The notes beneath the pieces are model-generated. The model made no database searches and had not been told where the DNA came from. It saw only the letters and a list, made by a program, of their open reading frames with translations. This document shows, one piece after another, positions 694 through 16,371 of a stretch of DNA of 64,000 nucleotides; within the stretch, counting starts at the first letter, position 1, and every line of letters begins with the position of its first letter. Origin of the DNA: Arcticibacter eurypsychrophilus (GTDB lineage Bacteria; Bacteroidota; Bacteroidia; Sphingobacteriales; Sphingobacteriaceae); assembly GCF_001730525.1 (NCBI RefSeq), contig NZ_MDFN01000015.1:1-64000 (forward strand), read 5' to 3'. The translations under genes and the position numbers were made by a program.

Positions 694-2043
694 ATGCAGG
701 AAGATAATTATACCGAATTCAAGAGCAGTTTTTCAGATGCCGTAATAGAAAGTTTAGTTGCTTTTACAAATGCGAAGGGCGGTAAGGTTCTTATTGGTAT
801 TGATGATAAAGGAAATCCAATAAAAGACTTCAACATCGGAACTGAAAGTCTTCAAAAATGGGTAAACGAAATAAAGAATAAAACACAGCCCAGTATTATA
901 CCCGATGCCCAAATTATCCACATTAAAGGCAAAAAGGCTGTATCATTCTATATGCATGAATTCCCTATTAAACCGGTTGCTTTTAAAGGCAGGTACTTTA
1001 AGCGTGTTAATAATGCTAATCATCAATTATCTGTATTAGAAATAGCAGATCTCAGTTTACAATCACTCCAAATTTCTTGGGATTCATATACAGCTCATGG
1101 CAAAACTATTGATGACCTCGATTTTAAAAAAGTTGAACTATTCATACAAAAAATAAACATAACCAATAGATTTTTACTGACAGGAGATATTCCAGAAAAC
1201 CTTGAAAAGCTAAAATTGATTAAAGGAGAAGCTATTACCAATGCCGCTTGGCTTTTGTTTGGGAAAGAAAACACAGGGTATAATATCCATCTTGGCCGCT
1301 TTAAAACACCATCATATATTATTGATGATAAAATGTTTAACGGCACTTTATTTGAAATGGTAGAAGAAACAATGCGATATCTGATCTCTCAAATTAAAGT
1401 TGCTTTTGAAATTAAAGGAATGCCAACCCAGCGAACAGAGATATTTGAATATCCCCTGCCTGCTTTAAGAGAATTGGTATTAAATGCCTTAATACACCGG
1501 GATTATTTAAGCCCTATTGACGTTCAAATAAAAGTATTTGATAACAAGATTACTTTTTTTAATCCTGGAAAATTATTTGGAGACTTAACCATTGATGATT
1601 TAAAAAAGGACAGTTATCAGGCTTTCGCACGCAATAAGCTGATTGCTGAAGCATTTTACCTTACAGGTGATATTGAGAAATACGGAAGTGGTTTTTTAAG
1701 GATAAGAAAAGAGATTCAGTCATATTCGACAATGCAAATGAATTTTGATGAGATACCTAATGGCTTCTTAATATCGTTAAGCTATAATGAACAAAAAATC
1801 AATACAACGCATGTAAATGAGGGTGTTAATGAGGGTGTTAATGAGGGTGTTAATGAGGGTGTTAATGAATTATTGAATTTAATAAATTTATATCCAGGTA
1901 AAAGAGTTCCTTTCTTTGTAACAAGAATGCATATTCCGGCAAAAACCATTGAACGCTGGCTCAAAACATTAAAAACTGAAGGCAAAATTGAATTTAAAGG
2001 AGCACCTAGAACAGGGGGCTACTGGAATATTCAAAGAGGATAG
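694..2043 (+). CDS. AlbA_2/Schlafen-domain putative transcriptional regulator with ATPase-like domain (COG2865 type)
   Basis: 449 residues. Residues 1-120 form an AlbA_2 (Schlafen-type) domain: the N-terminus with TEFKSSFSD and FTNAKGGKVLIGIDDKG is characteristic. Residues about 240-365 resemble the HATPase_c_4 module of COG2865 proteins (ALRELVLNALIHRDY, later KYGSGFLRI). The C-terminus (about 395-449) looks like a winged helix (TIERWLKTLKTEGKIEF, then GGYW). Such proteins are usually annotated as ATP-dependent DNA helicase-related regulators; their substrates are mostly unknown. Between the ATPase-like and helix modules sit four copies of GVNE encoded by four identical 12-bp units. The gene stands alone, with no partner of a known defence or toxin system beside it. 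A stress or defence role is possible but not shown. Confidence 0.75.
   Translation: MQEDNYTEFKSSFSDAVIESLVAFTNAKGGKVLIGIDDKGNPIKDFNIGTESLQKWVNEIKNKTQPSIIPDAQIIHIKGKKAVSFYMHEFPIKPVAFKGRYFKRVNNANHQLSVLEIADLSLQSLQISWDSYTAHGKTIDDLDFKKVELFIQKINITNRFLLTGDIPENLEKLKLIKGEAITNAAWLLFGKENTGYNIHLGRFKTPSYIIDDKMFNGTLFEMVEETMRYLISQIKVAFEIKGMPTQRTEIFEYPLPALRELVLNALIHRDYLSPIDVQIKVFDNKITFFNPGKLFGDLTIDDLKKDSYQAFARNKLIAEAFYLTGDIEKYGSGFLRIRKEIQSYSTMQMNFDEIPNGFLISLSYNEQKINTTHVNEGVNEGVNEGVNEGVNELLNLINLYPGKRVPFFVTRMHIPAKTIERWLKTLKTEGKIEFKGAPRTGGYWNIQRG
1819..1866 (+). repeat. Four perfect 12-bp tandem repeats inside the regulator gene
   Basis: The unit GAGGGTGTTAAT occurs four times without a mismatch (1819-1830, 1831-1842, 1843-1854, 1855-1866), encoding (GVNE)n in the linker between the ATPase-like and winged-helix domains. 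Because the unit is a multiple of three, slippage would change linker length but not the frame. Confidence 0.95.
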
Positions 2044-2112
2044 AAAAATGGAATATTGCCCTAGACATAAATAGAACTGTATAAGCTCATAGAGTCTCAT
2101 GTTGCTTTATAA

Positions 2113-2174
2113 ATCAGACCATCAGCCAAAGCCCAGCCCAAATGGGAGCGCAGGCATTGGCTGATGGATCTGAT
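2113..2174. repeat. Long inverted repeat between convergent genes
   Basis: Left arm 2113-2129 and right arm 2157-2174 pair over 17 positions with a single bulged T; the core CCATCAGCCAA / TTGGCTGATGG (2119-2129 / 2157-2167) is perfect. The loop is 27 bases. It lies between the rightward gene ending at 2043 and the leftward gene ending at 2218, so it may be a bidirectional terminator, although neither side has a clear T-tract. Confidence 0.6.
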
Positions 2175-2217
2175 ATTTCTTAGACCGGTAACGCTATCAA
2201 AGCCACCTCTTTTTTAA

Positions 2218-3201
2218 TTACCATTCAATAGCCTGATCTTCATCAGGAATCTGAGTGTTTAATCTACGTTCTAATATCAACGATCCTTTAACCTTATTTC
2301 TGATTTCGTAGTTAGAAACCATCGTATAATCAGAATATTCATAATCAATGTTGTTGATAGTTATATAACGGTGCATTAGGTAAGGACGAACAGCGTCCAT
2401 CATCTCGTCTACAGTATAACTGGCATCTCTGTTAACCTTAAACTTTATGGCAGGATTGTCGGCCGAGAAGGTTACTCCACCTGTTGCATTGAAGCTTGCA
2501 TAGATCTTATAATTGCGGCGATCTTGCCGCTCTTCATCTATGTTTCCTGCGTAAAAGAAGATGGTATGCTCATCTACGACATAGCTCTTGATTTGACTTT
2601 TAACAGTAGGAGTTTCATTTTCATAGCCTGCCATATTTACCTTCAATGCAGTCCCGCTGTAAGTACCCGAATAATCATTGAAGGGATTTACACGCAAGAT
2701 TGCTTTCCGGTAGTATTTCCGGGGATTCGCTGTGTAACTATTAGAAGGATCAGCCTCAATTGTAAGGGGAAGTACCCACTTCTCTGCCATGTCAATACCT
2801 TTAAGTGTAAAGTTAATTGGCATTAATGCGACGCTCTCGCCAGCCTTAAACGCCACCGTTGAAGGAATGGAGAAATACTCACTTTTCATTGCAGTGTAAT
2901 AAAAGTCGTCCCTGTTCTGATAGCGTTCAAAGTTCAACACATTCAATGTATCGGGATCTACGGCAACATTTACTGTTAAGTCTTTTTCGTTTGCTTTAGA
3001 TCCACTCACTACCATAGGCTGCTGGAATGTGGTACTCACATCATCTTTGAATCGAACATAGATATTAGATACCCCTTCGTTTTCTAAAGGTGCCTTAAAT
3101 GAGATGAGATTTTTAAATTGTTCTTCTTCCCACTCGTCGTTGCAGGAGCCGCAGATTATTATCAGCGTGAGGAGAAAGAGCTGTATATATGATCTTTTCA
3201 T
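2218..3201 (-). CDS. DUF4973/DUF1735-like surface lipoprotein of a SusCD locus
   Basis: 327 residues with a lipoprotein signal: hydrophobic residues 6-16 and then CGSC, the last Cys (residue 20) being the probable lipidation site, followed by NDEWEEE, an acidic stretch that fits the Bacteroidota lipoprotein export signal. Residues about 30-165 resemble DUF1735, a domain of SusD-associated glycan-binding proteins; the rest resembles DUF4973. It is the last gene of a four-gene unit (IPT/NHL, SusC, SusD, this) with only 15 bp to the SusD gene. By position it would be a SusE/F-like surface glycan-binding protein; the ligand cannot be told. Family names are from recall of sequence style, not a search. 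Confidence 0.6.
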   Translation of the reverse strand: MKRSYIQLFLLTLIIICGSCNDEWEEEQFKNLISFKAPLENEGVSNIYVRFKDDVSTTFQQPMVVSGSKANEKDLTVNVAVDPDTLNVLNFERYQNRDDFYYTAMKSEYFSIPSTVAFKAGESVALMPINFTLKGIDMAEKWVLPLTIEADPSNSYTANPRKYYRKAILRVNPFNDYSGTYSGTALKVNMAGYENETPTVKSQIKSYVVDEHTIFFYAGNIDEERQDRRNYKIYASFNATGGVTFSADNPAIKFKVNRDASYTVDEMMDAVRPYLMHRYITINNIDYEYSDYTMVSNYEIRNKVKGSLILERRLNTQIPDEDQAIEW

Positions 3202-3216
3202 ATTCTTTATATTTTA

Positions 3217-5271
3217 TTAATCGTTATAATTCCATCCTGGATTCTGGGTAAGCCGCTTGTTTCGTTTAAGCTCATTCGGATCAATCGGCCAAAACCACAT
3301 CTTGTCGGCAAAAGTGCTTTTGAGCGACCATACGGCTACTGGCTGATGAAAAAGATCTCGCTCGTTGGAATTCATTAGTATATTACATCCATAGACAGGT
3401 AATGCCTCTTCTATAGGAGCATCCATCCAACGGCGTAAGTCATAATAGCGTTGCCCTTCACCCATAAGCTCTGTAAAACGTTCACGCTTTAATGTTTTCC
3501 TTAATTCAGTCTTGTCACTGTACACATTAGATGAATAGTCGGGCACACCTCCGCGAATACGGACAGGTTGAATACCTCTTTGCATTTGCATAATGTCACG
3601 ACTGATGGTATAGTTTTCCCCACGCCATGATGGAATGTTGTAACTACCACCAAGTTCATTTAGCGCCTCGGCATAGCCAAGTAGAATATCTGCATAGCGG
3701 ATAGCAGGTTCAGCTTTTTGCCGTATTTTTTCTCCTTTTCTTCCCTCAAAGGTATCATTCGGATGAACAAATTTCTTTATGCCAAAACCTGTACGCAACC
3801 AATATGCATTAGAAGAGTTAAATCCATTCCCTTTGGTATTATCTCGATAATAGAATACCTGCTGGTTCCTGTTTTCTGGAAATTCCTCGTCAAGCAAAGT
3901 CCAGAAACTGCCGTTGTAAGCTACAGAAGCATAAAAGCGGGGTTCGCGGTTTGCATACTGTAAAGAAACACCTGGTCTGAGGGGCTTATATCTGCCGGCA
4001 TCGAAATCTTCCTGCGTTACATAACCGGTTACACGTGCAGAACCGTTTCCCCGTCCAATTTCCTTGTCTTTCCCTGGAGCATCAGCCCCGTCGTTCATAT
4101 AGTAGGCATCGACGAGCTTTTGTGTCAGTCCATGCGCATTCCAGCCAGTGGCGGAACGTGGCAACTGGTGCTGAACCATATCCGCAATAGTTTCACCCGC
4201 CTGATTCTGGCCCCTTGTAAATATCAGTTCCGGGTTTCCTGATGGATTTAGGGTGCCATCAAATACCTGGGCGTATGATTTTGCAGGATCAATGTCTGCC
4301 CAGCCTCCTGGCCAGGATTTTTCTGAAAAATTGTTGTCATTCGGTGGTGCAATTGTGGCATCCGTTCCAGTTACCTGTTTACGAACATGGTATATGTCGT
4401 ATACGCCCAGTTCGATTACATCTCTGGCTGCTGCAGCGGCTTTAGCCCATTTCTCTTCATTATAGTCAGCAGAAAGTAGCATTTTCCCAGCATCATCGGT
4501 TAGTTTGGCAGCATAGCCAGACTTATTCCCATTAGCCAGAGGACTTGCTGCGTAGAGCAGAGCTTTGGCACGAGTTGCCAGTGCTGCACCGCAAGTAGGG
4601 CGGGCAGAGGCATCCTGGCCACGTTTCATTCCCAGTTCTTGCATTTCCTTTGCAGCAAGCAACATTTCATTGCTTATATATGCTGCACATTCTTCGTATG
4701 AACTACGGGGAGTCGCTATTTCATCATAACTTTCTGTATAGTCAATTCCTTCCTCAGGCAATAGCGGAATAGGACCATACTTGCGTAGAAGTAGCCAATA
4801 AAGATAGGCTCTTGCAAAGCGGGCCTGTCCCCGGTAATCTTCTATTTGGACAGGTTTCAATTCCGTATTCATATACACGTTTTGAATCATAGTGGACGCA
4901 TTGCGTATTCCGCGGTAGCACTGAAACCAGGTGCCTTGTTTATCGTATTCGTTGTAGAGCCCTTGTTTAAACAAGTTATAAGAAAGCTCATTCTTAGATG
5001 GATCAAATTCATGGTCTCTATCGCCGTAATACATGTCGTCAGCAAAACAATGAGGCGTATTGCCTTTACTTGCCACATCAGCATTGATACCTGCGAATTC
5101 GGAAAATATGTGGGCCAGCCACTCTTCTGTGTACACCTTGCTTTTAAATACTTTTTCAGTAGTGAGCCGGTCCTTGAAATATTGGTCGGATTTTAGATAA
5201 TCATCCTTGCAGGAAGAAATGATACCCATGCCGACTATAATCAATAGCACACAATATATCTTTTTTTGCAT
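3217..5271 (-). CDS. SusD/RagB family outer-membrane lipoprotein
   Basis: 684 residues, at the long end for SusD proteins. The N-terminus is a lipoprotein signal (hydrophobic 5-18, then ISSC with Cys21, then KDD). The N-terminal TPR-like half includes QARFARAYLYWLLLRKYGPIPLL, a segment nearly diagnostic of RagB/SusD. The C-terminal part has LKRERFTELMGEGQRYYDLRRWMD and ends NPGWNYND, the usual SusD terminal pattern. SusD caps its SusC barrel and hands glycans to it at the cell surface. It is 11 bp downstream of the SusC gene, so the two are co-transcribed. The unit's substrate is not evident. Confidence 0.95.
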   Translation of the reverse strand: MQKKIYCVLLIIVGMGIISSCKDDYLKSDQYFKDRLTTEKVFKSKVYTEEWLAHIFSEFAGINADVASKGNTPHCFADDMYYGDRDHEFDPSKNELSYNLFKQGLYNEYDKQGTWFQCYRGIRNASTMIQNVYMNTELKPVQIEDYRGQARFARAYLYWLLLRKYGPIPLLPEEGIDYTESYDEIATPRSSYEECAAYISNEMLLAAKEMQELGMKRGQDASARPTCGAALATRAKALLYAASPLANGNKSGYAAKLTDDAGKMLLSADYNEEKWAKAAAAARDVIELGVYDIYHVRKQVTGTDATIAPPNDNNFSEKSWPGGWADIDPAKSYAQVFDGTLNPSGNPELIFTRGQNQAGETIADMVQHQLPRSATGWNAHGLTQKLVDAYYMNDGADAPGKDKEIGRGNGSARVTGYVTQEDFDAGRYKPLRPGVSLQYANREPRFYASVAYNGSFWTLLDEEFPENRNQQVFYYRDNTKGNGFNSSNAYWLRTGFGIKKFVHPNDTFEGRKGEKIRQKAEPAIRYADILLGYAEALNELGGSYNIPSWRGENYTISRDIMQMQRGIQPVRIRGGVPDYSSNVYSDKTELRKTLKRERFTELMGEGQRYYDLRRWMDAPIEEALPVYGCNILMNSNERDLFHQPVAVWSLKSTFADKMWFWPIDPNELKRNKRLTQNPGWNYND

Positions 5272-5282
5272 CTCTTTTAAAT

Positions 5283-8200
5283 TTATAGGTTAACACTTAT
5301 GCCAAATGTGAATGATTTAGGCAGGGGATACTCTTCTCCTCTGGCACTGGCAAGTTCCGGATCCCAAAGCTTGAATTTTGACCAGGTAAGCAAATTGCTG
5401 CCAACCAGGAAAAGACGAATATTATTGGCTCTAATTCTGTTAACCAATTGCTTTGGAAGTCTATAACCAATATCTACTGTTTTGAGACGGAGATATTGAC
5501 CATTACGCAACCAGAAAGTTGACTCTCTGAAGTTGTTGCCGTTTCCACCAAAACTTAATCGTGGATAGGAGGCGTTAGGATCTTCCGTAGCAGGATCACC
5601 CGAGATATCAGCAGAAATCCAACGGTTATCTCCCATCACACCTTTCATTACCTGTCCCCACTCCCCTTCGCTGAATGCAAATACGGTTTTTCCGTAAGTT
5701 TGGAAGGTAGATTTACCAGCACCCTGGAAGAAGACATTTACATCCAATGATTTCCAACTGGCAGAGGCGCCTAATCCATATATAAGGTTGGGCCGTCTGG
5801 TAGCACCAATTGCCACACGGTCTCCATCATCAACCACACCATCGCCATTTACATCTTTATACTTGAGATCCCCTGGCTGGTAGGTCCCAAAATTTTGTCT
5901 CGGACTGTTACGAATGTCATCATAATCCTTAAACATGCCTAGAGATACCAGTCCTTTTGCTTGATCTACACGAAAGCCTTCATCATTCTGATATGGATAT
6001 ACGTTATTTTGTTCATCTCTTTCCAGAATTTCGTTCTTGCTATAGGTAAAGTTGCCTCTGGTAGTAAGGTTTACATTTCCAAGTTTCTGATTATATGCTA
6101 AACGTCCCTCGAAACCGCTTGATTTTACTGCTCCTACGTTGGCCCGAGGCGTGCTTTCCAAACCAACAATTCCTGGTAGAAAGTTTCGCCCCATGTAAAT
6201 ACCTTTGCGATCTTCGTTGAAGATATCAAAATTTGCGTTGATCTTATCTCTAAAAAGTGAGACGTCAAAGCCCAGATTTTGTTTAGTTGCAATCTCCCAG
6301 GTCACATAAGGAGAAGAAACCTGAGTATACCTCATTCCTCCAAAGCCTCTGTCAAAACCGTAATCGGCCCATTGATATCCGCTTGCACCCTCTCCCAACG
6401 AGTATAAATAAGGGAAGCGGTCACCACCCAACTGATCATTACCCACTTTACCCTTGGAATAGCGGATCTTGAACATATTAATCCATTTAACATGGTCCTT
6501 GATAAACTTCTCTTCCGACACATTCCAGGCAAATGAAAACGCAGGGAAAAAGCCATATTGTTGCCCGGTAGCAAAGTTCTCCGAACCGGTATAACCGAAG
6601 GTGAAGTCAGCAAAATAGCGGAACTTATAATTATAAGTCGCGCGCCCGGCCAAGGCTTCATTTCGTCTGGATATTCCATTTTTAATATCGTCGCCAAGAT
6701 TTACCGTTCTAATCAATGCGTCACGGGTAAACCTAGCTACGGCACCGAAATTATGGCTTCCAACACCCCGGTCGTAATTGAACATGAGATCCTGGAACGA
6801 GCGCCTGTCGCCATTTGAACCACTCCTCTGGAACAATTCACTTGGATTGGAAACATGCGTAAATATAAGTGCCCCTTCTGGCGTGCGGGCACGTTCAGCA
6901 CGCCACTGCTCTGGCCATTTAATTCGTTGAATATCACTGTAATTGTTTGTGTCAAAGCCAAAGATTCCTCTGAAACGGAGGCCTTTTGTAATAAAGTCGA
7001 AATTTTGCTCCAAAGCAAGATTGGTCTGTATCTTGTTCGCCCAATTCTGATTGAATCCTGTTTGCGTAGCAACCACCCAGGGATTCGTCTGATTTCCCGT
7101 CCCTATTGTTGGTACATAACCGTTGGAATACATAACTGGTGTACGTATGGGAGAATAACCAAAAAGCACGCCCCAAAAATCATTATCACCGATTCCAGGA
7201 CTGTTACGCGTATCGAGAGAGCCTGCTATACCAAGTTGCAATAACGTTGATTTCGTAATGTTTATATCCGTATTCACACGATAGTTCCAGCGTTTAAAGT
7301 TGGCATTTGTACTGTAATCCTTCTTCAGCGTTTCATCCGTTTTGTACATTCCACCCTCGTCTACATAGCTACCAGAAACAAAATAACGCGCTGTAGGTCC
7401 CCCTCCATTTATATTCAAGTTGGCACGATAAGTCATGGCACCGTCTTTCAATAATAGATCTTTCCAGTCCACATTAGGATATAAATCCGGATCCAGACCT
7501 AACCGCATGATATCCAATTCCTCAGGCTGATAAATAAGTGGCTGATTGCGGGTAATGCGCGATTCATTTAACAGGTTACTATATGTCACACCATCTTCAA
7601 AATCAGGTGTAATCGTACGGGTATTGTAAATGGTTTCGTCTTTCAAGTCAATGTTAATCTTGCCATCCTTACCACGTTTAGTGGTAATCAGTATAACACC
7701 GTTTGCTCCTCTTGAGCCGTAAATAGCGGTAACCGCCGCATCTTTAAGTACGGTGAAGGATGCGATATCTTCAATATTAATTTCATTCAGGCTCCGCTCA
7801 ATATTATCTATTAAGACCAAAGCTGCTGATCCACCTCCAAAGGTAGAGATCCCCCGGATCCAGAATTCAGAGACGTTCCTTCCTGGCTGACCCGATTGCA
7901 TCATGGCCATAACTCCCGGCACGTTTCCGGCCAGTGCGTTTGAAAGACTCGATGTCGGATTTGATTTCAGATCTGCAATATTTACTGAAGTAACGGCACC
8001 AGTAAGCGTTAGCTTTTTTTGAACACCTGTACCTGTCACGACTACTTCATCCAGTACGCTCAATTCTGATTCTACAAGCGTTACATTAAGAACGAAAGCA
8101 TCTTTTACAAGTATTTCCTTAGTTACGAAGCCAACGTATGAGAATCTCAGCTTCTTATATCGTTCCACTTTGATTTTGAACTTTCCATTTACATCGGTAG

Positions 8201-8360
8201 TTGTACCCAAGCCAGGAGCATCGGGGACACCGACAGTTACACCAATTAAAGGTTCTTTTTTTACATCGGCAACAACGCCGGTTACTTCTACTATTTCCTG
8301 AGCCAGAGCACTTACAGTGACACTGAGAAGCAACATACAGGTTAATAAGAATTTATTCAT
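5283..8360 (-). CDS. SusC/RagA family TonB-dependent receptor
   Basis: 1025 residues. A signal peptide (1-20, ending ALAQ) is followed by a carboxypeptidase-regulatory-like domain (about 25-100), the SusC linker LDEVVVTGTG (TonB-box-like, about 104-113), a plug domain with the conserved SIxxIxVLKDAAVTAIYGSRGANGV pattern (about 195-220), and a 22-strand type barrel ending in Phe-poor FTFGISVNL. It has no STN domain, so no direct anti-sigma signalling is expected. It lies between the IPT/NHL lipoprotein gene (15 bp upstream) and SusD (11 bp downstream) as one operon. It imports large ligands, usually glycans, using TonB energy. Confidence 0.96.
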   Translation of the reverse strand: MNKFLLTCMLLLSVTVSALAQEIVEVTGVVADVKKEPLIGVTVGVPDAPGLGTTTDVNGKFKIKVERYKKLRFSYVGFVTKEILVKDAFVLNVTLVESELSVLDEVVVTGTGVQKKLTLTGAVTSVNIADLKSNPTSSLSNALAGNVPGVMAMMQSGQPGRNVSEFWIRGISTFGGGSAALVLIDNIERSLNEINIEDIASFTVLKDAAVTAIYGSRGANGVILITTKRGKDGKINIDLKDETIYNTRTITPDFEDGVTYSNLLNESRITRNQPLIYQPEELDIMRLGLDPDLYPNVDWKDLLLKDGAMTYRANLNINGGGPTARYFVSGSYVDEGGMYKTDETLKKDYSTNANFKRWNYRVNTDINITKSTLLQLGIAGSLDTRNSPGIGDNDFWGVLFGYSPIRTPVMYSNGYVPTIGTGNQTNPWVVATQTGFNQNWANKIQTNLALEQNFDFITKGLRFRGIFGFDTNNYSDIQRIKWPEQWRAERARTPEGALIFTHVSNPSELFQRSGSNGDRRSFQDLMFNYDRGVGSHNFGAVARFTRDALIRTVNLGDDIKNGISRRNEALAGRATYNYKFRYFADFTFGYTGSENFATGQQYGFFPAFSFAWNVSEEKFIKDHVKWINMFKIRYSKGKVGNDQLGGDRFPYLYSLGEGASGYQWADYGFDRGFGGMRYTQVSSPYVTWEIATKQNLGFDVSLFRDKINANFDIFNEDRKGIYMGRNFLPGIVGLESTPRANVGAVKSSGFEGRLAYNQKLGNVNLTTRGNFTYSKNEILERDEQNNVYPYQNDEGFRVDQAKGLVSLGMFKDYDDIRNSPRQNFGTYQPGDLKYKDVNGDGVVDDGDRVAIGATRRPNLIYGLGASASWKSLDVNVFFQGAGKSTFQTYGKTVFAFSEGEWGQVMKGVMGDNRWISADISGDPATEDPNASYPRLSFGGNGNNFRESTFWLRNGQYLRLKTVDIGYRLPKQLVNRIRANNIRLFLVGSNLLTWSKFKLWDPELASARGEEYPLPKSFTFGISVNL

Positions 8361-8375
8361 AATTCTATTTACTGA

Positions 8376-9833
8376 TTACTTTTTAATTACTTCATCTACT
8401 TCTTCAAGGGCTATTTTACGAAAACGACGATTTGCGTAGTCTCCAACGTAAAAGGCACCTTCTGCTTCATTGTATGCAAGTCCGGTTGGCCTGTCAAACC
8501 TTGCTTCCTTTCTCAAATCACCATCGACATACCCCCATGGATCACCATTGATACTGGAACTGCCTCTCCCCGCAAAGGTTGTGACACTTCCTTGAGGCGT
8601 TAAAATCCGAATGTCATGGTTGTCCAATTCTGTGAAATAGAAATCATATTCATCAGGCTTTGCCTGAGCAACGTATGCCGGATTTTTCACGAACACGCCC
8701 TGATAAGGAACTCTGAGACGGGCAGTTGAGCCTACTCCATCTTCATAGCCGGCAGCTCCGAGCTGTCCGCATACCAGGTAGGGTTGGTTGAATACTTTCT
8801 TTTCCCAGTTGTAATCACAACGAAGAATATAATGCTTGTTAATGACGACAATATATGCGTAGTTTCCGGATGGATGTATGAAAACCTTATATTCCCATTC
8901 CGGATCCTGAACCACAAATTGAATGTCACCCTTGAATCCAAGTCCTCCATTGAAATATTGATTCAGGTCATAACGGAAAAATTCTCCGCTGCCATAGCTA
9001 TTATAATACATTTCACCATTAACCGGGTGAACGGTTGCGCCATTACACTGCCTGGATTTTGTCAATATTTCTTTATCCTGCCAATCATTTTCTCGCGATA
9101 ACAATTGGGTTGACGCCTCATCATTTCCACCGCGATCTTCCGCAATGATCATGTACTTGCCATCAAGAGTAAAATCAAGGCTACGGGGACGCTCAAGATC
9201 CGTACGCTTCTGAGTCACGGTGCTATCCTCGAAGTTGATCAGGTAAAGTCCCCTGTTACCATCAAATACCACCCAAAGGTGTTTCGGATTTAACGGGTCA
9301 AATCTCATGGTAGAGGGATTCCAGAATCCACTCGCCATTTTATTCTGATCCTTATCTTTGAATTTTCCGTCCATCCAGGGTTCGTCACCTCTGTCATTTC
9401 TGTATCCGATCACAGTTGATACCACTAGCTTGCGCTGATAGTCAAAAACCATATCTGTCTTGCCAATAACTTGTTTGTCATTAGTTCCGACGCGCACTTC
9501 AACGTCGCCTCTGTATGCTTTTCCCGGGACCAGGCAGTAGAGTGATTCACCCTCCACGCTGATGACAACTGCCTTTTTGCCTCCTATAAATACCGATACA
9601 CTATCGGGATCATTTCCGAAATTTTTTCCAAAAATGACAAGACGTTGTCCCATACCTCCCGCTTTAGGATTGAAATTCGATACTACGACAGGCTTGGATG
9701 GGTCGAAGGGAAGTGCATCTGCGATACTACTCCCGTTGTCATCCTTGCAGCCCCCTATCACACAAGTTAAGGCGATAAAGGCAGATAGCATCCAGCATAG
9801 GAGCCGACTATCTCTTTTCTGATTAGCTCTCAT
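8376..9833 (-). CDS. IPT/TIG and NHL-repeat lipoprotein, first gene of SusCD unit
   Basis: 485 residues. The lipoprotein signal is residues 14-29 with CVIGGC (Cys29) and then KDDNGSS. Residues about 45-130 form an IPT/TIG immunoglobulin-like domain (VVVSNFNPKAGGMGQRLVI...FGKNFG). From about 135 to 480 the chain carries NHL-type beta-propeller blades: examples are DGVGSTARLRVPYQGVFV and RFDRPTGLAYNEAEGAFYVGD, the latter being the usual NHL turn. Proteins of this build often sit beside SusC in Bacteroidota and are thought to bind glycans at the surface. The gene leads a four-gene operon; the long region upstream must contain the promoter. No enzymatic residues are visible. Confidence 0.85.
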   Translation of the reverse strand: MRANQKRDSRLLCWMLSAFIALTCVIGGCKDDNGSSIADALPFDPSKPVVVSNFNPKAGGMGQRLVIFGKNFGNDPDSVSVFIGGKKAVVISVEGESLYCLVPGKAYRGDVEVRVGTNDKQVIGKTDMVFDYQRKLVVSTVIGYRNDRGDEPWMDGKFKDKDQNKMASGFWNPSTMRFDPLNPKHLWVVFDGNRGLYLINFEDSTVTQKRTDLERPRSLDFTLDGKYMIIAEDRGGNDEASTQLLSRENDWQDKEILTKSRQCNGATVHPVNGEMYYNSYGSGEFFRYDLNQYFNGGLGFKGDIQFVVQDPEWEYKVFIHPSGNYAYIVVINKHYILRCDYNWEKKVFNQPYLVCGQLGAAGYEDGVGSTARLRVPYQGVFVKNPAYVAQAKPDEYDFYFTELDNHDIRILTPQGSVTTFAGRGSSSINGDPWGYVDGDLRKEARFDRPTGLAYNEAEGAFYVGDYANRRFRKIALEEVDEVIKK

Positions 9834-10531
9834 AAAAAATAAAATATGATTATTGGTTAAAATTTGTACTCCAGCTTTTTATAAAGTAGCTGTCAACTAC
9901 AGAGCGACCTATAGCCGCGATAATTTGGCTTATCTCTGATCCTCGTAAGCCACGCCTTTACTTAATTCGGGCAACTTGTAAGCACAGAGAACCGAGAGAG
10001 CTAAGGAAACGATTCGCGCTTCCAGCTAATAATGGAGATTTGATTCATGACTAATTGGGTATAAAATAACTTAGAAATTCCGGCTTATTGCCGTTGTGAT
10101 TAATAATGGCTGAATTTAAAAGGCTGATCTATTCATTTTTGCATATCGGTCAAAACTGGTAGGGTATGCACCATACCAAGAAACATCAACAATTGAAATT
10201 GGTCAAGCCTGTTTAGTACGAGAAAGAGGTGAAGTATCTCAGCCTGAAAAATGTAGAGTTGTTATCATATGTTATTGGTTTATTTTATTGATTGCTTAAT
10301 CAATTAATTGCTTCCTTACATCAGCATCAATTAATTTATACAAGCAAAGAAAAGGATTTAGCAGGATTATAATTAGCCCTTTTATCTCAATAATTCCTCA
10401 AATCGTCTCGAAGTTTGACACTATCCATAAAGGGAATTTATATATCACTTAAAAATAAATTAAATTAAATATTATGAATAAACGTGTGTTTCAGACACCT
10501 CTAAAAAGACGGATATTGATCTTTAAAGTAG
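9834..10531. other. 698-bp intergenic region holding the promoter of the first SusCD unit
   Basis: No RNA gene or credible protein gene is visible. It should contain the promoter for the leftward IPT/NHL gene, but I could not find a convincing TAnnTTTG with a -33 element on that strand, so an activator-dependent promoter is possible. One small perfect dyad GGTATG-CAC-CATACC lies at 10163-10177, about 330 bp upstream of the gene. A 42-codon frame on the plus strand at 10473 overlaps the end of the next gene antisense and is probably chance. Confidence 0.5.
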
Positions 10532-10891
10532 TTACTTCATTTTTTCTATCTGAATTTTATCAATCTTATATTCTTTCCCTTGCTTTACCACTCCAATGGT
10601 AATAGTATTCACATGAGAAAATTTCGTATACTGCATCTGGTAAGTATTTTGATCCACCTGCTTATACGTCATAGAAGGGATCCATAAACAGTCAAAATCA
10701 AAATCATCGATCAATATATCATAGTTAAGCTGACCATCTAACTTGTACTCATTCGCTGATTGTTCAAATTGCATCAGTGCACTAGGCATTAAATGTGCTT
10801 TACGCAATGCCACAAGTCGGGGTACTAAGCCTTCGGGCATACTGCAATACGCTGATAGGTAAGCGGCGTAAAAGGTTTTCAATAAAGACAT
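10532..10891 (-). CDS. Small hypothetical protein, possibly DUF3828-like
   Basis: 119 residues, MSLLKTFYAAYLSAYCSM... The opening (FY-x2-YL-x2-Y), a middle D-rich segment (DDFDFDCLWIPSMTYKQVDQNTYQMQY) and the strand-rich end ITIGVVKQGKEYKIDKIQI resemble the DUF3828/NTF2-like fold in which secreted relatives begin after a signal peptide. Here no signal is present and an in-frame stop lies six codons upstream of the ATG, so the start cannot be moved outward within this frame; the protein is either cytoplasmic or has lost its N-terminus. It stands alone between the SusCD unit and the BlaI gene. Family assignment is tentative. Confidence 0.5.
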   Translation of the reverse strand: MSLLKTFYAAYLSAYCSMPEGLVPRLVALRKAHLMPSALMQFEQSANEYKLDGQLNYDILIDDFDFDCLWIPSMTYKQVDQNTYQMQYTKFSHVNTITIGVVKQGKEYKIDKIQIEKMK

Positions 10892-11046
10892 AGGTGAAGA
10901 TGAGTCTATTGGTTGCTTAGGGGCTATTTAAAGGTCCAAAAGCTAAATTAATTAAAATATAAACAGACCGCATTACAGAGGTTATCCAGTCCTGATTATT
11001 ACCGATACACTTTATAAATCACCTCTTGAAAATACACAATTACGAT

Positions 11047-11093
11047 ATAACTGAAAATTAAGTTGTATAACTGCATTATCAGTTATATATTTA
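11047..11093 (+). promoter_or_regulatory. BlaI-type operator embedded in the promoter of the blaI-blaR1-like operon
   Basis: A perfect dyad ATAACTGcattatCAGTTAT spans 11067-11086, and a third half-site ATAACTG lies at 11047-11053, exactly 20 bp (two helical turns) upstream. The promoter elements TTG (11063-11065) and TATATTTA (11086-11093), separated by 20 bases, bracket the dyad, so a repressor bound there would block polymerase. Autorepression by the adjacent BlaI-like protein is the natural reading. The -7 box ends 3 bases before the start codon. Confidence 0.7.
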
Positions 11094-11096
11094 CAC

Positions 11097-11465
11097 ATGG
11101 AAGAATTAACAAAAACGGAAGAGCGCATCATGCAGGTCATGTGGAAATTAAAAAAAGCGTTTGTTAAGGATATTCTTGAAGCATTAAGTGACAACCCTAA
11201 GCCTCCCTACAATACGATATCATCAGTAGTACGCCTCCTTGAAAAAAAGGGTTATATTGGTTTTAAAGCCTACGGGAAAACTTATGAATATTTTCCTTTA
11301 GTTTCAAAGTCTGATTATCGTAATTCCTCCTTTAAAAAAATACTGTCCGGTTACTTTGATAATTCCGCAGAAAACCTTGTCTCTTTTATGGTTAAGGAGC
11401 AAAACCTTTCAAAAGAGGATATAGAAAAAATAAAAGATGTATTTAACCTAAACAAACGGCCATGA
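11097..11465 (+). CDS. BlaI/MecI/CopY family transcriptional repressor
   Basis: 122 residues, the usual length for the family. The start MEELTKTEERIMQVMWKLKKAFVKDILEAL and then PPYNTISSVVRLLEKKGYIGFKAYGKTYEYFPLVSK form the winged-helix DNA-binding domain (about 1-75); the rest is the helical dimer region where BlaR1-type proteases or chaperones cut or act in relatives. The start is fixed because the first helix begins immediately at residue 3. It overlaps the downstream M56 protease gene by 4 bp (ATGA), the standard arrangement of a sensor-protease/repressor pair. In Bacteroidota these pairs are rarely tied to beta-lactamases, and none is seen here, so the signal and targets are unknown beyond probable autorepression. 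Confidence 0.93.
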   Translation: MEELTKTEERIMQVMWKLKKAFVKDILEALSDNPKPPYNTISSVVRLLEKKGYIGFKAYGKTYEYFPLVSKSDYRNSSFKKILSGYFDNSAENLVSFMVKEQNLSKEDIEKIKDVFNLNKRP

Positions 11466-12853
11466 GAACATTAAGTTACCTGTTGGAAGTTTCAGTCTGT
11501 ACAGGAATATTCTTCCTATTCTACCAGCTATTTTTAAGTAAGGTAACCTTTTTTACTCTTAACCGTTGGTTTTTATTACTATCTCTTTTAACAAGCTTCT
11601 TAATTCCTGCCATTACTATTTCTGCTCGTTTATCTGCTGTAATTCCCATTAAAACATCTTCTATAATACGTACTAACCCGATAGCAAGCATAAGGACGGG
11701 GGATATAATACTATTTAAAGAGCCAACTCATTCCGCATTACTATGGCAAGAATGGCTACCTATCCTTTATTTTATTATTAGCGGGCTGTTTTGCTTAAAG
11801 CTGATCATTTCAATTTTTCTTCTCCTTCTAAAAATCAAAAGACTTAAAGTTGAAATGATAGTTGAAGGCGTAAAAATATTAAAAGCAAGTAAGAGTTTGA
11901 ATAGCGGCTCATTTTTCAGTTACATCTTCCTTAACAATAAAGAATTAAATGATACCGAAATTCACCAGGTGATTGCTCATGAATTGGCACATACCAGGCG
12001 CTTTCACTCCATAGATATAATAATTACCCAAGTGGTACAGGCCGTATTATGGTTTAATCCATTCATTTATTTATACATTAAAAGAATAAATGAAAATCAT
12101 GAATATGAAGTAGATCAAATCATTACACTAAAGGAGAACAAAAGCGATTATGCTGCTTTGATCCTTTATTTAAGTAGCAACAATAACCCCTCGCTATACA
12201 ATGAATTCAGTATGGTTCCTATAAAGAGAAGAATCTCAATACTATTTAAAAACCCTACATGTAAGATGAAAAAGCTAACCTATTTATTTGCGCTACCCTT
12301 AGTAGTAATAAGCTGCTTCGTATTTGCCAAAAAGAGCAATAAAACTGTTCCTAATCATACGGCAAAAACTGTTATATCAAAATTAAAAACTGAAAATGCA
12401 GTACTCATGGAGAATTCTTTAAGTACTGCGAATAAAAAAGGGCATGATTCTTACTTAAAGAGAAATGGGAAAATTAAACCGGCTTTAACAGTTATTTTTC
12501 TACACTCTGACAGCATAATAGAAGCCGAAAGTACCAGTGCGAAAATAATGGATAAAATAAGTTACTCTGCTTCAGATTCTATTAAATTCAGCAAGGATAA
12601 TATGTTAATCTATCTTTTTGGAAATGCCCATTTACAATTTGTGGATACAAATAAAGCAGTCTGTAAATTAGCTGCAGCTTACATCACCATAAACCGGAAA
12701 AGTCAGAATATTACAGGAATAGGCTCAACATATGATTCTATTCTCAAGGAGTATACAGGTTTAGCTCAGTTAGCCGTAGGAAATGAAATAGGAAAAGCAG
12801 GTACAATTAAACTGAATCTTAGCCCTATTCTTAAGCAGGTTTTACTTGATTGA
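11462..12853 (+). CDS. BlaR1/MecR1-type M56 membrane metallopeptidase with OstA-like C-terminal segment
   Basis: 463 residues. Hydrophobic segments lie near 5-20, 30-52, 95-122 and 272-290. Between the third and fourth is the zinc-protease motif HELAH (His173, Glu174, His177), preceded by VIA and followed by TRRFHSIDII, typical of peptidase family M56. In known systems such proteins sense an extracytoplasmic ligand and trigger cleavage of the BlaI repressor encoded just upstream. The periplasmic C-terminus (about 300-463) is not a penicillin-binding domain and not an obvious TonB domain. Around residues 355-415 it has SASDSIKFSKDNMLIYLFGNA, then a run of beta strands and ITINRKSQNITGIG, which resembles the OstA/LptC/LptD-N jellyroll repeat. 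That resemblance is my reading by eye. Confidence 0.88.
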   Translation: MRTLSYLLEVSVCTGIFFLFYQLFLSKVTFFTLNRWFLLLSLLTSFLIPAITISARLSAVIPIKTSSIIRTNPIASIRTGDIILFKEPTHSALLWQEWLPILYFIISGLFCLKLIISIFLLLLKIKRLKVEMIVEGVKILKASKSLNSGSFFSYIFLNNKELNDTEIHQVIAHELAHTRRFHSIDIIITQVVQAVLWFNPFIYLYIKRINENHEYEVDQIITLKENKSDYAALILYLSSNNNPSLYNEFSMVPIKRRISILFKNPTCKMKKLTYLFALPLVVISCFVFAKKSNKTVPNHTAKTVISKLKTENAVLMENSLSTANKKGHDSYLKRNGKIKPALTVIFLHSDSIIEAESTSAKIMDKISYSASDSIKFSKDNMLIYLFGNAHLQFVDTNKAVCKLAAAYITINRKSQNITGIGSTYDSILKEYTGLAQLAVGNEIGKAGTIKLNLSPILKQVLLD

Positions 12854-12889
12854 AAATAGAGTTAAGATTTAGCGTTAATATATTATTAC

Positions 12890-13828
12890 TTAAGGCATTC
12901 CTTTTCCTCCTGCGGAACCATAAATTTGTCCGGTTGCATAACTAGCGTCACTTGCAGCAAGCTGGACATAAATAGATCCAAGTTCTACAGGCTGACCAGG
13001 TCTTCCAAGAGGTGTATCGCCTCCAAAACCCTTTAATTTCTCCTGAGTGGCTCCTCCACTAACTTGCAAAGGCGTCCAGATTGGTCCAGGTGCTACTCCG
13101 TTAACACGAATACCTTTTCGTGCCAGCTGTTTGGCAAGCGACCTTACGTAATTTGTGGTAGCTGCCTTGGTCTGCGCATAATCATATAAATCTTCTGATG
13201 GATCGGTAGCTTGCTCAGATGTGCTTCCTATAATAACAGACCCAGGCTGCAAATATGGAAGAGCTGCTTTAATAATCCAAAAGGGAGCATAGATGTTCGT
13301 CTTCATCGTCCAGTCAAATTGTTCCGTCGAAATATCAAGAATCGAAGCATGGGCTTGTTGCCTTCCCGTATTATTAACAATGATATCCAAACCACCAAGA
13401 CCATGCAGGGCCTCTTCGACCAATCGTTTACAGAAAGCCTCATCACGAAGATCCCCTGGAATAGCTATTGCCTTCCGGCCTTCAGCCTTAATTAAGGCAA
13501 TCACCTCCTGGGCATCCGGCTCTTCAGCAGGAAGATAATTAATGGCTACGTCCGCACCTTCACGTGCATAAGCGATAGCAGCGGCCCTAGGATAATCAGC
13601 AGGCTCAGGAGATTGAAAGGTGCCGATGATGGCGCAAGGACTGAAGGCTTTGCAGTTTAGCAGGACGTATTCCTGTGTAGCATCAACATATTTATAAAAC
13701 AGCAGCGACATGCTGACCATCAGTATACAGGCTGGATTGATCGTGCCATTAAAGGTAACCGTTTGTCCGGCAAGTGTATCGTACTTATCCAAATCAATAT
13801 CCTGGATATCCAGACCATCAGTATACAT
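12890..13828 (-). pseudogene. SDR-family oxidoreductase lacking its N-terminus, fused to a foreign 5' end
   Basis: The open frame has 312 codons, but only residues about 80-312 are SDR sequence (YhdF/general-stress-protein-39 type). Present are NNTG, the catalytic Ser in IIGSTSEQA, YAQTK with catalytic Tyr and Lys, and RVNGVAPGPIWTPL with GRPGQPVE. Missing is the segment that should precede RAAAIAYAREGADV: the beta1 strand and the TGxDSGIG dinucleotide-binding loop. In its place the frame starts inside a copy of the neighbouring hypothetical gene (LDIQDIDLDKYDTLAGQTV..., then SMSLLFYKYVDATQEYVLLN...). The product could not bind NAD(P) in the normal way, so I treat it as a deletion-fusion remnant. 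Start at 13828 is arbitrary. Confidence 0.8.
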
Positions 13829-13910
13829 GCTGGATTGATCGTGCCATTAAAGGTAACCGTTTGTCCGGCAAGTGTATCGTACTTATCCAAATCAATATCC
13901 TGGATATCCA
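13715..13910. repeat. 98-bp tandem duplication at the 3' end of a hypothetical gene
   Basis: Copy A is 13715-13812 and copy B 13813-13910, directly adjacent, with one mismatch (G at 13730 versus T at 13828). The unit length is not a multiple of three, so the duplication shifts the frame of the leftward gene entering from 14448. Removing one unit restores a single open frame of 487 codons from 14448 to 12890. Confidence 0.95.
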
Positions 13911-14448
13911 GATGTTCATAGTACTCTTCCCGGAAGTTAAAGGCCACCAGGGTTAGCCTGATGCGGTATTTGTTACTTTGCTCGTTGAGCCATTTGGGCT
14001 TTTTGATGTCCGTTTGGGTGTTCAGCTCAGGAAGGGTGACAGAAATCTTTCCTTCGGCAGACTGCAATACCTGCGGTACTACACGGAGCACATCGGCCAG
14101 CTGGCTGTCCACATTAAACTCCATGCCATTCAGGTAAGACAGGTCCGCATCGTGCAGATCCCGTTTTCCTACAGCTGCGCTGGCACTGTTGCGGATGCTG
14201 TGGTATACATAACGGGTGCTGCGACTAACGGCAGCCCCATCCCGAAATAGATAGGCCGGATCAAATGCCCTGCGAATAATGGCCGCAGTCGAGCTGGAAA
14301 GCCCGAATTCGGTCGAAGTTTTAATACTTTCCTGCGTTTGTTTAAATGCTTTGGGCTTGCCTTGAATAAGGTTCTTTTTGCCGTAAGTTCGGTATATAAC
14401 GGAGCCTGCTTTACCGCGTATCATTCCATTTTTATCTACATGAGCCAT
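13720..14448 (-). CDS. Hypothetical protein, 3' end frameshifted by a 98-bp duplication
   Basis: 242 codons. I do not recognise a function. The N-terminus MAHVDKNGMIRGKAGSVIYRTYGKKNLIQGKP, followed by a Gln/Lys/Ser-rich helix-like stretch, resembles a group of uncharacterised Bacteroidota proteins of about 220-270 residues (DUF6266-like style; not verified). Residues 1-210 look intact and end in TLAGQTVTFNGTINPACILMV. The last 30 residues (WISRILIWISTIHL...) come from reading the second copy of the duplication out of frame and are probably junk; the original continuation (SMSLLFYKYVDATQEYVLLN...) survives in the chimeric frame downstream. No signal peptide or membrane segment is seen. Confidence 0.6.
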   Translation of the reverse strand: MAHVDKNGMIRGKAGSVIYRTYGKKNLIQGKPKAFKQTQESIKTSTEFGLSSSTAAIIRRAFDPAYLFRDGAAVSRSTRYVYHSIRNSASAAVGKRDLHDADLSYLNGMEFNVDSQLADVLRVVPQVLQSAEGKISVTLPELNTQTDIKKPKWLNEQSNKYRIRLTLVAFNFREEYYEHLDIQDIDLDKYDTLAGQTVTFNGTINPACILMVWISRILIWISTIHLPDKRLPLMARSIQPVY

Positions 14449-14650: not shown

Positions 14651-14686
14651 ATAAGTCCCATTTATGGACGTTTAGGTGGGACTTAT
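14651..14686. repeat. 10-bp inverted repeat with 16-base loop
   Basis: ATAAGTCCCA (14651-14660) pairs perfectly with TGGGACTTAT (14677-14686). No T-tract follows on either strand, so it is not a standard terminator. Confidence 0.7.
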
Positions 14687-14817: not shown

Positions 14818-16371
14818 TTAATCAGCTAAAGGGAAAGTCATCATGACTCTTGAACCATCCGGAGATATTCCATTGATCCGGAGCATATTATTTTTACTTA
14901 CCGCTAAGGCGCCATCAATATCATCAACCTTAGTGATTGGTTTCTCATTGATAGAGGTAATGATAGTTCCCCTTTCTATTCCATAACTATTAAATAGACC
15001 CTCCTGGCGCACACCTGTTACAACCAAACCACCGGCAATACGGTAACGTTGTTTCTGTGCTGCCGAAACAGGGCTAAAGCTTGCACCAAGCGTATTGTAT
15101 ATTTCTGAAGCAGATTTAGTGTTCTTAGCAACCTTCAGTTCAGACTCACCTTTCAGCGTAACTGAAGCAAGGCGTTCCTTACCTTCACGAAGATAACCCA
15201 GTTGGACTTTATCGCCAGGCCGTAGACGCGCTACGCGTTCCTGAAGATCAGAACCGGCCATAATTTTATTACCATTGATATTTGTTAGGATATCACCTTT
15301 TTTAATACCTACAGCAGCAGCACCACCACCTTCAACAACCGTAGTTACTAACAGACCACTGATTTCTTTAATGTTCAGTTTTTTAGAAACGCTGGCGTCT
15401 AAAGGCATAAAAGTAACCCCCACAAAACCACGTTTAACTGTACCGAATTTAATAAAGTCATCCATGATCTTTTTAGCCAGGTTAACTGGAATAGCAAATC
15501 CATAACCTGCATAATATCCAGTTTGAGAGGCAATAGCGGCGTTAATTCCGATCAGTTCCCCCCGGGTGTTCACTAGAGCACCACCACTATTTCCGCGGTT
15601 AATAGCGGCATCCGTTTGAATAAAGGATTCAATTGCTGAATTTGTACGGGGTTCCTGAGATTGTCTGTTGCCATATCGTTGTCCCTGTTCCTGGTTTTGC
15701 TCATTCAAGATACCTATACTTCTACCTTTAGCACTCACGATACCCGCTGTAACAGTTGTTTGTAAGGTTAAAGGGTATCCTACGGCTAAAACCCACTCGC
15801 CTACCTGCACATTATCTGAGTTACCCAATTTCACAACAGGTAAACCTGTTGCGGCAACTTTGATCAGGGCAAGGTCTGTATTGGGGTCACGGCCAATTAC
15901 TTTGGCTTCGTAAGAACGATTGTCCGTTAAGATCACCTCAATCTTACTTGCTTTTTCAACCACATGATTATTGGTAATGATGTACCCATCCGGGCTGACT
16001 ATGACACCTGAACCAGATGCCATAGTTGGTTGTCTTTCGGCGTTACCACCTCTAGGGCTACCAAAGAAATCGCGAAACATTTCCTCCATTGGATCTCCGC
16101 TTCCTCCACCTTCCTCACCTTGGGATTCCGGTTGGGTACCTCCATAAGTGGTTTGAATATGCACTACTCCTGGCGTAACAGCTGCGGCAGCCTGAACGAA
16201 GTCTACCTCTCCTGTAGAAGAAACACTTACCGGGTTATTCGTAAAGTATACTTTCTGTTTATCCTCGATCCCCATTTTCGCGGATGTATTATTTTCAATA
16301 AGCTTGTATCCGCCTATTGCAACTGCACCTCCAAATAATGCAGTTAGGAACGCTAAACCTATTCTTCTCAT
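14818..16371 (-). CDS. htrA: Do-family (HtrA/DegP) periplasmic serine protease
   Basis: 517 residues. An N-terminal membrane anchor or signal (MRRIGLAFLTALFGGAVAIGGY) leads to the trypsin-like domain. The catalytic triad is visible: His136 in ITNNHVVE, Asp166 in NTDLALIKV, Ser262 in RGNSGGALVN. A long flexible insert rich in Gly/Glu (QPESQGEEGGGSGDPMEEMF) precedes the protease core, and a Gln/Asn-rich loop sits before the active Ser. Two PDZ domains follow: about 320-400 (GFVGVTFMPL) and about 420-510. The family degrades or refolds misfolded envelope proteins. The gene is monocistronic, with its own promoter at 16402-16433 and a terminator directly behind it. Confidence 0.95.
   Translation of the reverse strand: MRRIGLAFLTALFGGAVAIGGYKLIENNTSAKMGIEDKQKVYFTNNPVSVSSTGEVDFVQAAAAVTPGVVHIQTTYGGTQPESQGEEGGGSGDPMEEMFRDFFGSPRGGNAERQPTMASGSGVIVSPDGYIITNNHVVEKASKIEVILTDNRSYEAKVIGRDPNTDLALIKVAATGLPVVKLGNSDNVQVGEWVLAVGYPLTLQTTVTAGIVSAKGRSIGILNEQNQEQGQRYGNRQSQEPRTNSAIESFIQTDAAINRGNSGGALVNTRGELIGINAAIASQTGYYAGYGFAIPVNLAKKIMDDFIKFGTVKRGFVGVTFMPLDASVSKKLNIKEISGLLVTTVVEGGGAAAVGIKKGDILTNINGNKIMAGSDLQERVARLRPGDKVQLGYLREGKERLASVTLKGESELKVAKNTKSASEIYNTLGASFSPVSAAQKQRYRIAGGLVVTGVRQEGLFNSYGIERGTIITSINEKPITKVDDIDGALAVSKNNMLRINGISPDGSRVMMTFPLAD

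Follow-up and report, generated by a model that had tools for sequence, protein, structure and literature searches.

The question raised by positions 12890-14448 of the 64,000 bp stretch of Arcticibacter eurypsychrophilus DNA analysed here (the window; contig NZ_MDFN01000015.1) is whether the gene fusion that is apparent at this locus, and the 98-bp duplication by which the fused frame is interrupted, are features of the chromosome or products of its assembly. Read on the minus strand from 14448 to 12890, the locus starts as an uncharacterised protein and ends as a short-chain dehydrogenase (SDR), and our analysis indicates that two separate things are probably superimposed here, namely a recent, dead-end chimera and a 98-bp duplication that was made by the assembly. 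The locus and its immediate surroundings comprise the following features:

13589-14448, minus strand: family-derived part, representing residues 1-254 of a 321-aa protein and containing the 98-bp repeat (assigned by paralogue identity, codon comparison and residue count)
12890-13588, minus strand: SDR-derived part of 232 aa, corresponding to residues 104-335 in the intact homologues
13586-13591, minus strand: fusion junction, with a Pro codon at 13591-13589 on the family side and an Arg codon at 13588-13586 on the SDR side
13715-13812, minus strand: repeat copy 1, on the SDR side, with the own-locus base at 13730
13813-13910, minus strand: repeat copy 2, on the gene-start side, identical to the C26 paralogue
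13813-14109, minus strand: 297 bp without a difference from the C26 paralogue, from the tandem junction on; probably a collapsed repeat in the assembly
14651-14686, strand not given: upstream inverted repeat with 10-bp arms, of a kind common to most family members
14818-16371, minus strand: HtrA-like protease (Trypsin_2 and PDZ), a conserved neighbour

Two open reading frames, both on the minus strand, were found at the locus (13720-14448, 242 aa, and 12890-13828, 312 aa). Inside the fusion gene the 98-bp units at 13715-13812 and 13813-13910 are arranged head to tail and were reported by TRF as 13715-13912 (period 98, 2.0 copies, 99% match, score 389), one of just two tandem arrays in the window. 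The preliminary description of this DNA had noted adjacent 98-bp copies with one mismatch, and both TRF and alignment confirm this, the mismatch being G at 13730 versus T at 13828; in addition, a 12-bp palindrome (13802-13813) crosses the boundary between the units. The starts of the two reading frames lie 620 nt apart, and as 620 and 98 both leave a remainder of 2 when divided by three, a single 98-bp unit accounts for this offset and thereby for the frameshift between the frames. Removal of one unit leaves 1559-98 = 1461 nt, or 487 codons including the stop, exactly as had been calculated before, and the parental boundaries, which were located independently, agree with this arithmetic (254 + 232 = 486 aa). 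The order of htrA followed by a member of the family is also present in Arcticibacter svalbardensis, and the HtrA protein is 91% identical to its counterpart in A. svalbardensis MN12-7, the best value among the 12 named loci found.

The first part of the fusion belongs to an unnamed family of approximately 320 aa present in Arcticibacter and its relatives, in which the core (RDLHD, FNFR) is strongly conserved and most members end in a GKRVSF-like sequence after a variable linker. Protein searches returned 29 family matches at 28 places in the own genome, the fusion locus being counted twice, and 25 of these places are frames of 282-335 aa, the other three being the fusion itself, a truncated copy (C14:72022) and a fragment (C4:44319); five relatives within the genus yielded 9-24 matches each. 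The closest member, at G000:C26:19322-20284 (the C26 paralogue), is intact, specifies 321 aa and contains a single 98-bp unit with the same frame on both sides, and the fusion is 97% identical to it at the amino acid level over residues 1-218. The fusion shares the 254 N-terminal residues with this family, including the core motifs GxAGSVxYR, EFG, RDLHD and FNFR, but differs from it by the loss of the last 67 residues, which include Y277, G279 and N280, invariant across the family, and F318, nearly so, such that the SDR part stands where the YxGN motif and the C-terminal GKRVSF-like (GxRVSF-like) end would be expected.

The 232 residues of the SDR part match residues 104-335 of homologues in other genera, the closest of which (76% at the DNA level) is present in genome G007, whereas elsewhere in the genus the top SDR match reaches an identity of no more than 52%. 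For comparison, seven intact homologues from six genomes were used, six of 334-336 aa and one of 379 aa with an earlier ATG, and in all seven the matching part begins at the R that directly follows TGGDSG(M/I)G. The fusion is accordingly devoid of the signal-like N-terminus (a TAT_signal match below the cut-off), of the first strand and of the TGGDSGMG loop. Its match to profile PRK06128 (NF004782) starts at position 68 of 300, covers 68-299 and scores 348.9 bits against a cut-off of 481, and its PDB match covers residues 79-309 of 5jyd. The earlier statement that the SDR frame lacks its first beta strand and cofactor loop is thus supported by the profile start and by the seven intact homologues. 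Catalysis in SDR enzymes involves a Ser and the YxxxK motif, and a working SDR without the cofactor loop is not expected, given what is known of the family. As compared to PRK06128-type SDRs (solved relatives 5jyd, 3r3s and 3i3o), the fusion retains the predicted catalytic Ser and YxxxK, with GSTSEQ and YAQTK aligning with the seven intact homologues, as well as the C-terminus, but it is without the N-terminal Rossmann strand and its TGxxxGxG cofactor loop and carries A to T in the NNAG/SNAG motif, where the A is invariant in all seven intact homologues. A literature search returned no SDR fusion without the glycine-rich loop.

The join between the two parts coincides with a codon boundary, and the parents share almost no homology there. 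Identity with the C26 paralogue breaks at 13589, the codon comparison places the join at 13588/13589, and the long SDR matches in other genera start at query positions 873-876, equivalent to window positions 13588-13585, shorter ones starting later. Between 13590 and 13729 the family-derived sequence differs from C26 at 8 of 140 positions, and this stretch therefore represents a locus of its own. In our judgement, the join is probably genuine, and we hold this with considerable confidence; a misjoin is unlikely because there is no repeat at the join that could mislead a short-read assembler. The contrary reading, in which the assembly is wrong at the join as well and the SDR lies apart from the family gene in the chromosome, is consistent with a draft of 93 contigs that was probably gap-closed, with the exact 297-bp repeat, which leaves the pairing of 5′ and 3′ halves (C6 or C26) uncertain, and with the synteny, which left this pairing unsettled: the 148-aa gene and the trpE-like gene occur together in four further genomes of the genus, where the 11-13 kb inspected contained neither a moeB-like gene nor a family member (moeB-like and trpE-like being names read off the sequences rather than the outcome of a family search). 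We nevertheless consider a misjoin distinctly unlikely, as the join is situated approximately 140 bp inside the locus-specific sequence, a k-mer assembler would have no reason to misjoin sequences that share next to no homology, and a search of the assembly for the missing SDR start, with the first 124 residues of an intact homologue as query, gave nothing outside this locus but weak matches (best E 0.001).

A DNA search of 60 genomes including the own genome, in which at most six candidates were scored per genome, gave any match in 14 of the 60, and no match that spans the join was obtained in the 59 other genomes. Within the genus, none of the family matches in the five other genomes falls into an open frame of more than 455 aa, and searches covering all 6 of its genomes likewise showed no such fusion in a relative. 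The preliminary description had proposed that related genomes be searched for the intact parents, and had named relatives with the identical chimeric order and a normal cofactor loop as a refutation; no relative with the identical order was found among these 59 other genomes (at most six candidates scored in each), and both parents were recovered, the intact 321-aa C26 paralogue in the own genome and intact SDR homologues in other genomes. Its claim that the two genes were fused by a deletion stands as far as the in-frame join of two genes is concerned, as is evident from the C26 paralogue and the intact SDRs, but the deletion is unproven. The join may have arisen by deletion, by insertion or by some other rearrangement, since the sequence beyond the join matches the sister species A. 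svalbardensis just in short stretches: window positions 1000-10500 gave 8 short matches only, each of about 130 bp or less, and positions 10400-13700 gave matches in the family-derived part only.

The 98-bp duplication has a different character. Copy 2 together with the next 199 bp (297 bp in total) shows 0 differences from the C26 paralogue, as compared to 12 of 339 positions in one flank of this stretch and the above 8 of 140 in the other. Copy 1 differs from C26 at exactly one base, which is also the sole mismatch between the copies; copy 1 therefore carries the own-locus allele and copy 2 the C26 allele, and identity with C26 begins at the tandem junction. This is the pattern expected of a false duplication, the copies differing as two near-identical loci do and the boundary coinciding with the stretch that these loci share. 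The duplication is probably a short-read assembly artefact, because the mismatch between the copies equals the difference between the own locus and C26, with identity starting at the tandem junction, and because a second tandem duplication in the same genome shows the same allele signature. At this second site (L142:1654-1880), a 113-bp duplication, both differences between the copies are differences between the own locus and the C15 paralogue, and from copy 2 on there is no difference from C15 over 276 bp.

The way in which the genome was assembled is compatible with such an artefact. The own-genome draft comprises 4,686,437 bases in 93 contigs, and the window very likely derives from the draft of A. 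eurypsychrophilus MJ9-5, for which the genome report gives 4,687,084 bp, 97 contigs and 30-bp CRISPR repeats, and Illumina HiSeq 2000 sequencing with assembly by SOAPdenovo (k=31) and SOAP GapCloser (PMC5435697). In vertebrate genomes, PMC9516828 describes false duplications that were joined when gaps were filled incorrectly, as well as a SOAPdenovo assembly with high k-mer duplication; the present case resembles these in that the copies are adjacent and differ as two similar sequences do, and departs from them in that the two similar sequences here would be bacterial paralogues. At the locus, the short-read assembler would have reached the stretch shared exactly with the C26 paralogue, whereupon an SDR-side contig with the own allele would have been set head to tail with a repeat contig bearing that of C26, instead of the two being overlapped.

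In an alternative scenario the duplication is real, slippage or end-joining having doubled 98 bp with a 2-bp overlap after the fusion, thereby shifting the frame and leaving both pieces to decay. The duplication is, after all, present in the deposited sequence, the palindrome across the unit boundary could promote slippage, and the own genome harbours other degraded copies of the family (C14:72022 and C4:44319), and identical letters would result if a real duplication had subsequently acquired one mutation or undergone gene conversion from C26. It would, however, take a separate coincidence to place the C26 allele in copy 2 with identity starting at the tandem junction, and the same coincidence again at L142, and we regard this scenario as rather unlikely, albeit with an appreciable chance of being correct. 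The earlier proposal that a biological duplication broke the fusion at a later point is consequently not supported, given the 297 bp of identity with C26 and the allele signature that recurs at L142, and the assembly error that had been named as its refutation is the likelier case, as judged from the sequence comparison and the assembly method.

To determine how frequent such repeats are, the same thresholds were applied throughout (period 40-500, 1.9-2.3 copies, match of 97% or more). In 864 kb of the own genome 6 repeats were returned, including 2 from a CRISPR-like array, and in a further 320 kb none, as compared to 1 repeat, of 297 bp, in 1,200 kb of three other genomes. Outside the array, this represents 4 in 1,184 kb versus 1 in 1,200 kb, and with both the window and the array excluded, 3 in 1,120 kb versus 1 in 1,200 kb; as this difference in rate is weak, the case for an artefact rests on the allele signature, which was observed in 2 of the 4 near-exact two-copy repeats (window and L142). 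The remaining two, which like the L142 repeat lie in open frames, do not show it. One, a 122-bp duplication (L144:6649-6895) with no DNA paralogue in the own genome, interrupts a response-regulator/SpoIIE gene that has a single unit in A. svalbardensis; the other is a 126-bp repeat (L139:7483-7734) with identical copies, in which the frame is kept and to which a stretch 7 kb away is 94% similar. The CRISPR-like array (L166:12435-17816) consists of 70 exact copies of a 30-base repeat, and 53 of its 69 intervals are distinct, which means that some units are repeated; perhaps this array was also inflated by gap closing. The MJ9-5 genome report lists no CRISPR for A. svalbardensis (PMC5435697).

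Paralogous copies of the family gene in the sister species may bear on the behaviour of both assemblies. A copy linked to htrA and a copy linked to moeB are present in both species; over the first 339 bp, 12 positions distinguish the two copies in the own genome (96.5% identical), whereas the identity between the htrA-linked copy and its counterpart in A. svalbardensis is only 88% over 372 bp. Gene conversion between the two copies, or their partial collapse in assembly, would fit these values. In A. svalbardensis contigs end inside two copies of the gene, one of them linked to htrA, at positions that agree to within one base, and the assembly of this species is described as a 454 assembly (PMC3709154). 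Concerted copies may explain the trouble that both assemblies had at this gene. Separately, a different SDR in A. svalbardensis was observed to be split between two contig ends, the end of G005:C140 (L127) and the start of G005:C8 (L114), with the break at the same conserved codon (GGDSGIGR) and a 4-base overlap, GCGC; this possibly represents an inserted repeat element, and a DNA search with the end of its first part gave no second copy in the A. svalbardensis genome.

As for the fusion itself, the reading that we favour is that a recent and nearly homology-free rearrangement would have joined the family member that follows htrA to the 3′-terminal two-thirds of an SDR gene, in frame by a 1-in-3 chance. 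The chromosome most likely carries a single unbroken frame of 254 + 232 residues, and as this frame is without the conserved ends of both parents it would most likely represent a non-functional chimera. The earlier view of decay as the conservative explanation is supported. Only 2 private changes were observed in the SDR part, versus 1-9 in the seven intact homologues, and most codon differences from C26 are silent (19 of 21 in total, made up of 10 of 11 on the 5′ side and 9 of 10 on the 3′ side); the damage would therefore appear to be recent, or the frame still constrained, and we favour the former. A function of the fused frame is conceivable, as the SDR part shows no sign of decay, and there is a slender chance that, with the join real and the duplication false, the 486-aa chimera is made and its first half works.

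The preliminary description had also raised a new protein arrangement and a reversible switch, and no sign of either was found. For a new enzyme architecture, the fusion is without the conserved ends of both its parents and was seen in none of the 59 other genomes searched (at most six candidates having been scored per genome). In the switch, gain or loss of one 98-bp unit would toggle between the fused 486-aa protein and two split products, and the frame arithmetic permits this, 98 leaving a remainder of 2 on division by three. Phase variation by tandem-repeat copy number is a known system, which the locus resembles in having a repeat unit that is not divisible by three within a reading frame, but from which it differs in that there are two long copies only, the fusion was not seen in relatives and no functional fused product is expected. 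The genomes searched yielded no other isolate of this species in which copy-number variants might have been seen. Since no match spans the join in the same 59 genomes (again with at most six candidates scored in each), the fused product would be without its cofactor loop, and similar repeats in the same assembly sit in other genes, a switch is extremely improbable.

For the family to which the first part belongs, no confident match to Pfam, NCBIfam, PHROGs or PDB was obtained. Pfam searches with 44 family members gave weak matches in a few, the best at E 0.0011 in one member, with ApbE in three (best E 0.0086), and NCBIfam gave one match (E 0.06) for the same 44; PHROGs searches with 4 members gave E 0.037 or worse, a PDB profile search with the family gave one match at E 0.24, and a scan of viral contigs gave no confirmed relative. 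A divergent member at L093:1577-3095 lies directly upstream of a DUF6266 protein (PF19781), the N-terminus of which looks similar; this neighbour matched the family profile at E 0.012, yet with a probability of 3.5% over 31 columns, and the literature search returned no paper on DUF6266. With L109 and the duplicate L027 left out, 34 of 45 family members have an AAGTCC/GGACTT inverted repeat in the 450 bp upstream of them, as compared to 0 of 45 downstream and a mean of 0.65 of 45 in shuffled upstream sequence. Its 11-base core is present in 11 copies in 1,184 kb, 6 of them upstream of family genes and the other 5 at four sites between ORFs of 90 aa or more, and since 5 of the 11 copies sit away from family genes, the repeat may be a dispersed palindromic element.

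Near-exact two-copy repeats within genes of this draft should not be taken for biology before the reads have been checked. The fusion, if confirmed, would represent an ordinary truncation of a gene by rearrangement within a strongly expanded and uncharacterised family, and it is this family, with its upstream palindrome, that merits study above the fusion itself.
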